NCBI GenBank assembly: GCA_002279705.1
Contig: NCCO01000013.1
Coordinates: 1 to 33,232 of the forward strand
DNA: 33,232 nucleotides
Reading direction: 5' to 3'
From: Allobosea sp. 12-68-7
GTDB taxonomy: Bacteria; Pseudomonadota; Alphaproteobacteria; Rhizobiales; Beijerinckiaceae
A model generated the notes under the pieces. The model did not search any database. It worked only from the letters and a program-made list of their open reading frames with translations, and was not told the origin of the DNA. Positions within the stretch are counted from its first letter, which is position 1. Every line of letters begins with the position of its first letter. Of the stretch, positions 10,565 through 33,174 are shown piece by piece. Position numbers and translations under genes: made by a program.

Positions 10565-10571
10565 CGGCCGG

Positions 10572-10596
10572 GAACCGCCGGGCGCGAGGGCGGTTC
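10572..10596 (+). terminator. Hairpin after cydAB, terminator-like but without a U-tract
   Basis: An 8-bp stem pairs GAACCGCC (10572-10579) with GGCGGTTC (10589-10596) around a 9-nt loop, starting 8 nt after the cydB stop. No run of T follows, so it may be a weak terminator or an RNA-stabilising hairpin. The metallopeptidase gene starts 65 nt downstream. Confidence 0.4.
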
Positions 10597-10660
10597 GATG
10601 GTGGCTTGAGTCCGGGGCGCTCTCCGTAGAGATTGCCGGCAGGCTCACAGGGACGACGCC

Positions 10661-15170: not shown

Positions 15171-16229
15171 ATGCGCCCCGCCGCCGCCGATCTCCTCGCC
15201 TGGTACGACCGCCATCGCCGCGCCCTGCCCTGGCGCGCGGGCCCGGGCGAGCGGCCCGATCCCTACCGGGTCTGGGCGTCGGAGATCATGCTGCAGCAGA
15301 CCACCGTGACGGCGGTCAAACCCTATTTCGAGCGCTTCATGGCGCGATTTCCGACCGTACAGGCGCTGGCGGAGGCGCCGTCGGAGGCGGTGATGCAGGC
15401 CTGGGCCGGGCTCGGCTATTATTCCCGCGCCCGCAACCTCCATGCCTGCGCCATCGCCGTCGTCGCCGAGCATGGCGGGCGCTTTCCCGACAGCGAGGCG
15501 GGTCTGCGCGCCCTGCCCGGCATCGGCGCCTACACGGCCGGGGCCATCGCGGCGATCGCCTTCGACCGGCCGGCCGCGGCCGTGGACGGCAATGTCGAGC
15601 GGGTGATGACCCGGCTCTTCGCGATCGAGGAGCTTCTGCCCGGTGCCCGCCCGCTGGTGCGCGAGCGCGTGCTGGCGATGATGCCGCAGGACAGGCCCGG
15701 CGATTTCGCGCAAGCGCTGATGGATCTCGGCGCCACGATCTGCACGCCGCGCAACCCGGCCTGTGGCCTGTGCCCCTGGCGCGAGCCGTGCCGGGCGCGG
15801 GCCGAGGGCACGCAGGAGAGCTTCCCGCGCAAGGCGGCGAAGAAGGCCGGCGCGACGCGGCGGGGAGCCGCCTTCGTGCTGCTGCGCGAGGATGGTGCGC
15901 TGCTGCTGCGCACCCGCCCGCCGAAGGGCCTGCTCGGCGGCATGGCCGAGGTGCCGACCAGCGACTGGAGCGCCGGTTACGAGCTGGACGGGGCCTGGCA
16001 GGATGCGCCGGTGTTGACGCGCTGGGAGCAGCTTTCGCCGCCGGTGCGCCATGTCTTCACGCATTTCCCGCTGGAGCTCACCGTGTTCAAGGCGAGCGCG
16101 CCGACCAGGACACAGGCGCCGGCGGGGATGCGCTTCACACCGCTGGCGGCGCTGGGCGAGGAGCCGCTGTCGGGGGTGATGGTGAAGGTTCTGGCGGCGG
16201 CGGGGGTAAAGGGCAGCCCAAAGGGCTGA
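15171..16229 (+). CDS. mutY: Adenine DNA glycosylase
   Basis: MutY removes adenine mispaired with 8-oxoguanine in DNA. The 352-residue protein begins at ATG 15171 (a GTG immediately upstream is possible); the frame is open further upstream but overlaps the GFA gene. The HhH-GPD domain shows ALPWR, the catalytic region WASEIMLQQTTVTAV, the helix-hairpin-helix LPGIGAYTAGAIAAIAF and the catalytic Asp in VDGNVERVMTRLF. The 4Fe-4S motif is C-x6-C-x2-C-x5-C (CTPRNPACGLCPWREPC, about 194-210). The C-terminal NUDIX-like domain (about 230-350) recognises 8-oxoG. It converges with ccrM with 7 nt between stops; clustering with ccrM and rnhB is usual in this group. Confidence 0.96.
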   Translation: MRPAAADLLAWYDRHRRALPWRAGPGERPDPYRVWASEIMLQQTTVTAVKPYFERFMARFPTVQALAEAPSEAVMQAWAGLGYYSRARNLHACAIAVVAEHGGRFPDSEAGLRALPGIGAYTAGAIAAIAFDRPAAAVDGNVERVMTRLFAIEELLPGARPLVRERVLAMMPQDRPGDFAQALMDLGATICTPRNPACGLCPWREPCRARAEGTQESFPRKAAKKAGATRRGAAFVLLREDGALLLRTRPPKGLLGGMAEVPTSDWSAGYELDGAWQDAPVLTRWEQLSPPVRHVFTHFPLELTVFKASAPTRTQAPAGMRFTPLAALGEEPLSGVMVKVLAAAGVKGSPKG

Positions 16230-16236
16230 CCTCCAA

Positions 16237-17451
<1,215 letters not shown>

Positions 17452-30335: not shown

Positions 30336-30599
30336 GTGACCGTAGCTGTGAACCACCTCTGGAGCGTCGCCGCGGCAAAGGCACGATTCTCCGAGTTGAT
30401 GGAGAAGGCGGCGAATGAGGGTCCGCAAACAGTGACCCGCAACGGGAGACCGACCGCCGTTGTGGTTTCTGTCGAGGAGTGGGAACGCAGGACGACCCGC
30501 AAGGGGACCTTCGCTGACTTCCTCCTCAATTCGCCCTTGCGCGGCTCCGGAATTGACCTGACGCGTGACGATCAGCCACCGCGCGATATCGATCTGTGA
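30336..30599 (+). CDS. Type II antitoxin, Phd/YefM family
   Basis: An 87-residue antitoxin. The GTG start at 30336 has AGGAGG 5 nt upstream (30325-30330). The N-terminal Phd fold is visible: WSVAAAKARFSELMEKAAN, then GPQTVTRNGRPTAVVVSVEEWERR, the signature of the family. The C-terminal part, TFADFLLNSPLRGSGIDLTRDD, is the disordered toxin-binding tail. The stop overlaps the toxin start (GTGA), so the two are translated together. The dyad upstream may be its operator. The toxin is a PIN-domain protein. Confidence 0.92.
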   Translation: MTVAVNHLWSVAAAKARFSELMEKAANEGPQTVTRNGRPTAVVVSVEEWERRTTRKGTFADFLLNSPLRGSGIDLTRDDQPPRDIDL

Positions 30600-31021
30600 C
30601 CTTCCTGCTGGATACCAATGTCATCTCCGAGGGCGAGAAGCCGGCGCCAAATGCCGAGGTCATCCAGTTCCTGGCGCAGGCGAACGAAGACAGCCTCTAC
30701 CTCAGCGTCGTCACCATGGCCGAACTCCATCGCGGCCTCGCACTGATGCACAGCGGCCGCCGCCGTGACCAGCTGGCGAACTGGATCGAAACGGAACTGC
30801 CCTCCCGCTTCGGCGAACGACTGCTTCCCTTCGACCTGCCGACGGCGGCAGCTTGGGGTGACATCATGGCCGCGTCGCGTCGCGACGGCCTGAACCTCCA
30901 GATGATGGACGCCATGCTGGCGGCCACCGCCGTGGTTCATGGGTTGACCCTGGTGACGCGAAATGTCCGGGATTTCGCACGGCTCGGGTTGCCGATGCTA
31001 AACCCCTGGGAGGGCGACTGA
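30596..31021 (+). CDS. PIN-domain toxin, VapC/FitB type
   Basis: A 141-residue PIN-domain ribonuclease toxin beginning at GTG 30596, overlapping the antitoxin stop by 4 nt. The acidic metal site is visible: the first Asp in FLLDTNVISE, the Glu in VTMAELHRGLAL, and the Asp in MMDAMLAATAVVHGLTLVTRN with the final RNVRDFARLGL block that is typical of the FitB/VapC group. VapC toxins cut tRNA or rRNA. Catalytic residues look intact. Phd-type antitoxins are common partners in alphaproteobacteria. It converges with the minus-strand gcvPB, only 8 nt between stops. Confidence 0.93.
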   Translation: MTFLLDTNVISEGEKPAPNAEVIQFLAQANEDSLYLSVVTMAELHRGLALMHSGRRRDQLANWIETELPSRFGERLLPFDLPTAAAWGDIMAASRRDGLNLQMMDAMLAATAVVHGLTLVTRNVRDFARLGLPMLNPWEGD

Positions 31022-31029
31022 CGCGCGCC

Positions 31030-32746
31030 CTACTCGGCCGCCTCCGCCAGCGGCGCCGGGGCTACCCATTTCAGCACCGGCTGGCGCGCCGCGCGGGTCT
31101 CGTCCAGGCGGCGCAGCGGGGCGTGGTGGGGCGCGCCGGTGAAGCGGACCTTGTCGTTGCCCTTGGCTGCCATGGCGAGGTCGCGCAGCGTCGCGATGAA
31201 AAGGTCGAGCGAGGCCTTGGATTCCGACTCGGTCGGCTCGATCAGCATGGCGCCGTGGACGACCAGCGGGAAATACACCGTCATCGGGTGGTAGCCCTCG
31301 TCGATCATCGCCTTGGCGAAATCGAGCGTGGTGACGCCAGTGCCCTTCAGCCACTCATCGTCGAACAGCGCCTCGTGCATCGAGGGGTGATCCGGGAAGG
31401 GCAGCGACATCAGGTCGGAGAGGCCGGCGCGGATGTAGTTGGCGTTCAGCACCGCGTCCTCGGAGGCCTGCTTCATGCCGTCCGAACCATGGCTGAGCAT
31501 GTAGGTGAGCGCGCGGACATACATGCCCATCTGGCCATGGAAGGCGGTCATGCGGCCGAAGGGGGCGTTGCCCTCGGGCGCCTCCTCGCGGGTTTCGACA
31601 AGCCGTATCTGAACCGCCTGAGCCAGGAAGGCCGGATGAACGTCGCCGTCCTCAACACTGATGCCGAGTTCCGACAGTTTGGAAAGCAGATCCTCGATCT
31701 CCTCGCTCGACGCTGTCGAGTCGGAAGGCATCAGGAGGTTCAGCTCGTCATATGTCATGAAGCCCGAGGCTTCGACGGACCTCCGCAGTTCCGCCCCGAC
31801 CTTGCCACGCCCCCCGACGAAATCGGCGAGGGTCACTTTATCCAGATGGATGAACGGCACCGGCGCGAAGGGCGCGAGCCGCTCCGAGAGCACGACCGGA
31901 CCGGCGCCCGGCCCGCCGCCGCCATGGGGCGTCGAGAAGGTCTTGTGCAGGTTGATGTGCATGGCATCGACGCCGAGATCACCCGGCCGGGCCTTGCCGA
32001 CGATGGCGTTGAAATTGGCGCCGTCGCAGTAGAAATAGGCACCGGCCTCATGCATCGCGGCGGCGATCTCGACGATCTCAGGCTCGAAGATGCCGCAGGT
32101 GTTGGGGTTGGTCAGCATGATCGCGGCGATGTCGGGCCCGAGCAGCGCCTTGACGTCCTCGACCGCGACTAACGGGGACGAGCACGACATTGCGGGTCGC
32201 GCCCTCGCCCTTGGCGGCGATGGCGGCCTTGATCGCCATCATGCCGCAGGCCTCGCCATGGGCGCCGGCCTTCGGCGACAGGGCGACGGCCGGCATGCCG
32301 GTCAGCGTCATCAGATAGCGCGAGAGCTCGAGCATGACCTCGAGCGCGCCCGGCACAGTCGAGACCGGCTGGAGCGGGTGCACGTCGGAGAAGCCGGGCA
32401 TGCGCGCCGTCTTCTCGTTGAGGCGAGCATTGTGCTTCATCGTGCAGGAGCCGAGCGGGAAGAGCCCGGTGTCGATGCCGTAGTTCTTCTGGCTCAGGCG
32501 CACATAATGTCGCATCGTCTCGGGCTCGGAGAGGCCGGGCAGGCCGATCTCGCCCTGGCGGGCGTGGCTGCCCAGGCGAGAATTGAACGGGGCCGGCGCA
32601 TCGATGTCGACGCCTGTCGTCTCGGGATGGCCGATCTCGAAGATCAGCGGCTCGATCTGCTGCAGCGCGCGGTTGCCGGTGAAGGTCGCATGCGGCTCAT
32701 GGGCGGACACGGACCCTTGCGTGGGACGTCCCTGACGGTTCAGCAT
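31030..32746 (-). pseudogene. gcvPB: Glycine dehydrogenase (aminomethyl-transferring) subunit 2, broken and carrying an insert
   Basis: GcvPB with GcvPA forms the PLP-dependent glycine decarboxylase (P-protein) of the glycine cleavage system. Two frames cover it: the N-terminal half (ATG 32746 to about 32174) ends with GEGATRNVVLVP, and the C-terminal half resumes at about 32169 with VAVEDVKALLGPDIAAIML. The residues normally between, including the conserved SAHGTNPA block (about 28 codons from family knowledge), are missing and the frame shifts. The PLP lysine block NLHKTFSTPHGGGGPG and the MTAFHGQMGMYVRALTYMLSHG region are intact. Residues 115-193 of the C-terminal half (31612-31848) are an extra sigma-70 region 1.1-like segment. 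It is therefore a pseudogene as sequenced. Confidence 0.88.
31612..31848 (-). other. Sigma-70 region 1.1-like insert within gcvPB
   Basis: Between VPFI and QIRLVETREEAPEG there are about 79 codons without counterpart in the GcvPB sequences I know. They encode GFMTYDELNLLMPSDST, then SEEIEDLLSKLSELGISVED. This fits E. coli RpoD region 1.1 (GYLTYAEVNDHLPED, then SDQIEDIIQMINDMGIQV) position by position at the conserved residues, namely the TY-x-E-x-N, the P, the IED and the GI-x-V. The 30 residues before it are less alike. Codon use (AAA, TAT, GAT, AGT, GTT) is less GC-biased than in the flanks. The insert is in frame with the C-terminal half. The exact borders are uncertain by several codons. 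Confidence 0.7.
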
Positions 32747-33126
32747 GAGGTGACTCCGGACTTCTGAGATGGATCATTGATGGCGCGGAAGATTGTTTCG
32801 ACGACGCCGTCGAGGTTTTCGGTCAGTTCGTGATTCCAGAAACGAAGCACACGGAAGCCCTGCGACTTGAGATAGGCGGTGCGGCGTGCGTCGTGTTGGG
32901 CTGCTGTCGGCAGGCCGTGCTGACCGCCATCGAGTTCAATCACCAGCCTCGCGCCGATATGGACGAAGTCGGCGAAATAGGGCCCCAAAGGTGCTTGGCG
33001 ACGAAAATGACCGCCCGGCAACTCCATTGCTTTCAGGTGCAGCCAAAGGCGCCTTTCCGCGGGCGTGGCCTCCCGGCGCAGGCGCCGCGCTTTCGACGTG
33101 CGGGGGTCCTTGCGGTTCCCGGCCAT
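32740..33126 (-). CDS. DUF559 endonuclease-like protein (Vsr-like fold)
   Basis: A DUF559 protein of 128 residues starting at ATG 33126 (MAGNRKDPRTSKARRLRREATPAERRLWLHLK). The conserved core is LRREATPAERRLWLHL, then FRRQAPLGPYFADFV, the acidic LVIELDGGQH (catalytic-type Asp/Glu) and the C-terminal RVLRFWNHELTENLDGVVETI. The fold is related to the very-short-patch repair and restriction endonuclease superfamily; the substrate is unknown. The stop overlaps the gcvPB start by 7 nt, so it sits inside the glycine-cleavage operon. Such genes occur in many copies in Rhizobiales in varied places, suggesting a mobile or accessory ORF; this is inferred from memory. A GC-rich hairpin follows upstream. 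Confidence 0.88.
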   Translation of the reverse strand: MAGNRKDPRTSKARRLRREATPAERRLWLHLKAMELPGGHFRRQAPLGPYFADFVHIGARLVIELDGGQHGLPTAAQHDARRTAYLKSQGFRVLRFWNHELTENLDGVVETIFRAINDPSQKSGVTSC

Positions 33127-33174
33127 CACAGCCCCTCCCCGGTGAAGCGACCCAGCGATTGACGGGCCCAACCT

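Follow-up and report, generated by a model that had tools for sequence, protein, structure and literature searches.

The gcvPB gene of the window, by which we mean the whole analysed stretch of 33,232 nt (contig NCCO01000013.1), carries an in-frame insert that resembles region 1.1 of RNA polymerase sigma factors. The explanation that we prefer, at a probability of about one half, is the recent import of a short tract by recombination from an unsampled lineage. The insert spans 31606-31840 on the minus strand, with boundaries accurate to a few bases according to the alignment with 18 same-genus gcvPB genes and the loop lengths. It is held in a C-terminal gcvPB reading frame of 386 aa (31030-32190, minus strand), while the N-terminal half of the gene is read in a separate frame (32078-32746, minus strand), where the gcvPB frame is kept only down to about 32173 and is then shifted.

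The region 1.1-like insert in gcvPB

A sequence-only reading had placed a sigma-70 region 1.1-like module at 31612-31848. This segment was indeed open on the minus strand, with 79 residues in the same frame as the 386-aa ORF, and only its edges had to be moved by a few bases, to about 31606-31840. The Pfam profile Sigma70_r1_1 (PF03979) matched the segment with 34.7 bits and an E-value of 1.8e-8, above the curated cut-off of 22.5 bits, which bore out the proposed domain. In the whole 386-aa ORF the score was 31.5 bits against the same cut-off, and Sigma70_r1_1 was the sole sigma domain found by Pfam. The region 1.1-like core of the insert comprised residues 16-69 of P0002 (31642-31803, minus strand), with the start at residue 16 judged from the structure model, and the PF03979 match covered residues 28-67. 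Region 1.1 usually forms the front of the main sigma factor, whereas the insert lies within gcvPB and is not joined to a sigma factor. It shares with region 1.1 of RpoD the match over residues 28-67 and the predicted order of helices and strand, while the first 16 profile positions had no match in it.

The similarity was also found by other comparisons. With an HMM built from 59 region 1.1 sequences taken from sigma-like loci, the insert scored 47.2 bits, compared to a maximum of 9.9 bits in 2000 shuffles; three of the five other frames were among the matches listed, each below 0. When the insert was compared by sequence with solved structures, the best match was RpoD (7ye1_F, E 1.9e-5), and the E. 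coli RpoD chains were matched with E of about 0.01. A structure model calculated from four sequences reached a pLDDT of 67, and its helix and strand elements came in the order that region 1.1 should have. The fold search with this model gave sigma chains bearing region 1.1 in its first four rows, at E 0.06-0.41, and no match of the search reached E 0.001. Moreover, the GC content by codon position in the insert was 0.65/0.41/0.76, and GC3 was 0.91 in both flanks, in agreement with the earlier remark that its codons are less GC-biased than those around it. The periodicity indicates that the insert was derived from coding sequence that was read in this same frame.

The insert is no ordinary part of GcvPB, as had been supposed from the sequence. 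It was absent from all 18 same-genus GcvPB genes, relative to which the window has a net gain of 74 codons. The distance from the PHGGGGPG motif to the G[RK][MI]T.. motif was 116 residues in the window and 42-43 residues in the relatives, a comparison based on a motif-pair pattern that matched 21 of 29 loci (18 same-genus, two others of the order and one same-genus duplicate) and failed in eight. Among 12 genomes of other families, seven had two GcvPB matches that were adjacent or overlapping, which leaves no space for an insert there; the remaining five (three with one match, two with none) carry no information on this point. An intact relative of the window gene matched the Thermus GcvPB structure 1wyt_B with an E-value of 2e-127. 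In the Thermus enzyme the loop is shorter, and a stretch similar to ESAHGTNPATAA is present. Compared with glycine dehydrogenase subunit 2 in general, the window copy differs by the insert, a frameshift and the loss of the ESAHGTNPATAA stretch.

A second lesion, an alien flank and an otherwise undecayed gene

The host gene is broken, as had also been suggested. At 32170-32172 (minus strand), 83 nt of the closest genome, G303, are replaced by 3 nt, which shifts the gcvPB frame and removes the ESAHGTNPATAA stretch that the 18 relatives keep. Both gcvPB halves matched NF003346, and the GcvPB match extended to either side of the insert. With 83 nt gone and the frame shifted, the gene has no complete GcvPB reading frame with the conserved motifs, and the enzyme cannot work as assembled. 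If the C-terminal half is translated, it would lack both the N-terminal half and the conserved active-site-region motif, and the module would have no working role here, being at most a part of that half.

Beside the insert lies a stretch of GcvPB-type loop, RLVETREEAPEGNAPFG (31561-31611, minus strand), that is alien to the closest genome. It differed from G303 at 18 of 50 compared positions (64% identity), whereas the mean was 2.4 mismatches and the maximum 13 when the remainder of gcvPB was scanned in 1246 overlapping 51-nt windows. The window was 95.6% identical to G303 in the neighbouring part and 64% in the flank stretch, while the four pairs of relatives that were more than 95% identical in the neighbouring part retained 86-98% in the flank stretch. 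Pairs of relatives that were about 91-93% identical elsewhere often had just 60-80% identity in this stretch, which indicates that the loop is variable by nature. The RLVETREEAPEGNAPFG protein was closer to that of G276 and G299 (RLVETREEAPAGNKPFG, 15 of 17 residues) than to that of G303 (RLVENAADAPAGNQPFG, 11 of 17). At the DNA level, the nearest sampled genome still had 13 mismatches in 50 positions. Just outside the alien tract, at 31510-31560, there were 1-4 mismatches in 51 nt across the genus. The flank at 31561-31611 probably belongs to the same replaced tract as the insert, and we take that tract to extend beyond the insert, judging from these alignments.

The rest of gcvPB was under strong purifying selection. 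Compared with G303, dN was 0 in two parts of 131 and 164 codons, 0.0084 in one of 107 and 0.0242 in one of 56, with dS of 0.10-0.32 across the same parts. An old pseudogene was ruled out by this near-zero nonsynonymous change outside the lesions. Either selection maintained gcvPB up to the time of the lesions, or the organism itself does not carry them. In addition, gcvT and gcvH were open, gcvPA was open as far as the contig end, and the assembly yielded a single copy of gcvPB. An alien tract that extends past the insert, in a gene that is otherwise undecayed, indicates either a recent event or an assembly hybrid.

The window was syntenic with G303 from about 3813 to 32746, with 93-97% identity per block. 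By eye, the other large differences between the two were intergenic; small indels were few, and many occurred as compensating pairs, not each of which was compared with the gene calls. A Phd/YefM antitoxin and PIN-domain toxin pair adjoins gcvPB at 30336-31021, where G303 has 36 nt instead. At 10571-10660 (90 nt) and 16205-16245 (41 nt) G303 has about 770 and 720 nt, which by eye hold small cassette genes. Directly upstream of gcvPB is a DUF559 gene (32740-33171), and a similar gene at the same-genus locus L038 seems, by eye, to stop at the DUF559 position.

Origin of the insert

The best matches of the insert were sigma region 1.1 sequences, with about 41-57% identity over about 45-55 residues, within residues 15-74, among the matches listed; same-genus RpoD had 50-52% identity. 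Nothing related to the segment over its full length turned up in 298 and 390 genomes of the family (overlapping samples searched with different thresholds), in 397 genomes of the order, 385 of the class and 398 of the phylum, or in 67 genomes of the genus searched with PF03979. Short peptide patterns detected no relative in genome_contigs, where they hit only three sigma-type loci: by eye, L031, from a Phycisphaeraceae MAG, was a sigma-type ORF adjoining a primase-like ORF, and L032 and L033 were sigma-type ORFs. Viral contigs yielded no confirmed relative. An origin from phage, plasmid or E. coli was rejected after protein and DNA searches. The proteins matched were RpoD-type or sigma-like and stand-alone region 1.1 proteins, with weak matches (E of about 4) to a diguanylate cyclase and a metalloprotease; the DNA gave short matches and Paracoccus rpoD, and none in E. 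coli genomes. In PHROGs one sigma-factor family was matched, and PADLOC gave no match. None of the titles listed from the open-licence literature pointed to region 1.1 inserted in GcvPB.

The sequence-only interpretation was upheld in part. It had considered the insert a possible remnant of recombination with a stand-alone region 1.1 gene. Genes of this kind occur on plasmids and in further genera of the family, so recombination with one of them is possible. However, the insert scored 47.0 bits with an RpoD-type model, compared to 35.7 bits with the DUF551 type and 22.9 and 12.0 bits with two others, which indicates that the stand-alone genes seen are not the donor. The stand-alone paralogue that had been proposed for this genome was not found: at E ≤10 the window was the only PF03979 match in the 92%-complete assembly. 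Of the 67 genus genomes, 63 had a PF03979 match at E ≤0.1, a single one each; the 62 matches other than that of the window scored 80-92 bits and lay in frames of 345-712 aa, consistent with RpoD, and the 67 genomes contained no stand-alone region 1.1 at this threshold. The rpoD region 1.1 that belongs to this genome was not found in the assembly either, while such a region is present in 62 of the other 66 genomes of the genus, so that with 92% completeness the absence of a paralogue from the genome is not firm. For the sigma non-essential-region family there was only a match below the cut-off in the genome, and this family passes in just two of 14 control genomes.

We favour a recent import, in which divergent, foreign coding DNA of the sigma region 1.1 type would have entered the variable gcvPB loop very recently. 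The replaced tract would be short, about 31561-31840, holding both insert and flank, and the route would be recombination, with either an allele of gcvPB or a fragment of a gene from an unsampled, probably alphaproteobacterial, lineage. A separate deletion about 330 bp upstream, which shifts the frame, disables gcvPB as well. The absence of the insert from the 18 same-genus genes, its coding periodicity and lower GC3, and the family and plasmid genes that carry region 1.1 outside rpoD are consistent with such an import, as are the open gcvT, gcvH and gcvPA and a dN of about 0, which point to a gene intact until recently. The flank argues in the same direction by its 18 mismatches, where pairs above 95% keep 86-98% identity, and by a protein nearer to G276 and G299 than to G303, although a fast-changing loop could explain it in part and its DNA is not near any sampled genome. 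Against the import stands the fact that no donor was found in any collection searched, and two lesions in an otherwise clean gene also fit an assembly fault. That second reading, in which reads of two related strains or unrelated DNA were joined in gcvPB and made at least one lesion, is a serious contender, though we consider it the less probable one; the real gcvPB of the organism may then be ordinary. The assembly is fragmented (312 contigs, 92% complete, 2.5% contamination), contains gcvPB only once, and has the two lesions within about 330 bp of each other in a strongly selected gene close to a contig end. Moreover, the near-identity of 31510-31560 across the genus means that an assembler could cross between strains there. 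On the other hand, some molecule with an in-frame insert between GcvPB-type flanks would still be needed, and no comparable scrambling was noticed in the remaining about 29 kb shared with G303, where the small indels were not all compared with gene calls.

It is unlikely that the donor lineage has a working fusion, in which region 1.1 would form part of an intact GcvPB that was imported here and then broken. The in-frame position, the site in a loop of variable sequence that the Thermus enzyme has in shorter form, the conserved region 1.1 residues, the coding composition and the nesting of region 1.1 in DUF551 in the same family would all suit such a protein; however, no insert-bearing gcvPB was seen in the sampled genomes or, by peptide patterns, in genome_contigs, and the only copy seen is frameshifted. 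We know of no enzyme that uses a region 1.1 domain. Most likely, the insert is a scrap that was imported recently and not a working fusion, and as a single broken case it cautions that what looks like a convincing domain fusion may be no more than recent scrap or a hybrid made in assembly. A small mobile element appears very improbable. Rickettsia palindromic elements insert in frame into genes, as this insert does, and in the family several small proteins unrelated to each other were found to have region 1.1-like modules. However, those elements have multiple copies and inverted repeats, and this candidate was rejected because the insert was present in one copy in the assembly with no related copy at another site, was surrounded only by short, imperfect repeats and was unremarkable in its RNA folding (z -1.3).

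Region 1.1 outside sigma factors

The review PMC4598750 describes region 1.1 as sitting in the RNA polymerase channel, where it mimics DNA, and as restricted to Group 1 sigma factors. Judging from profile scores, some small proteins of this taxonomic family that are not sigma factors also contain region 1.1-like domains, which would contradict that statement of restriction to Group 1 and is the wider and more useful point. Database entries named RNA polymerase sigma factor region1.1 domain-containing protein, from Microvirga plasmids, and the small families described below share with the insert a region 1.1 outside a sigma factor, but they are separate genes, and the insert scores less with their models. 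It is conceivable, if doubtful, that region 1.1 serves in these bacteria as a reusable accessory domain and is not exclusive to sigma factors, occurring alone, nested in DUF551, with a hydrophobic tail behind it and, in some lineage outside the sample, in the GcvPB loop. If true, region 1.1 in that loop could link a metabolic enzyme to RNA polymerase.

The candidate non-sigma domains passed the PF03979 cut-off (L147-L169, L065:3815-4348 and L170:2498-2743). Two such proteins are encoded on Microvirga plasmids, one of 81 residues with region 1.1 and another with region 1.1 and DUF551; by eye, region 1.1 lies between two DUF551 ends in the latter, of which Pfam matched only the C-terminal DUF551 part. 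Furthermore, 26 genomes of the family were picked for extra PF03979 matches or for their genus, and 24 of them belong to one genus (g9). In all 24 the sigma-type match was accompanied by at least one additional PF03979 match, with 25-39 bits, and six of the additional matches had an internal stop. From the lists of the 26 genomes, 23 additional loci were read, leaving out those of the g9 genomes G049, G130, G162, G224, G245 and G265. Fifteen of the 23 were of a type of about 90 residues with the module at the end. Six had the module followed by a proline- and alanine-rich linker and a C-terminus that read as hydrophobic, and two were of the DUF551 type, adding to the Microvirga one. Three representatives run against Pfam all passed the PF03979 cut-off, with 28.4-38.4 bits.
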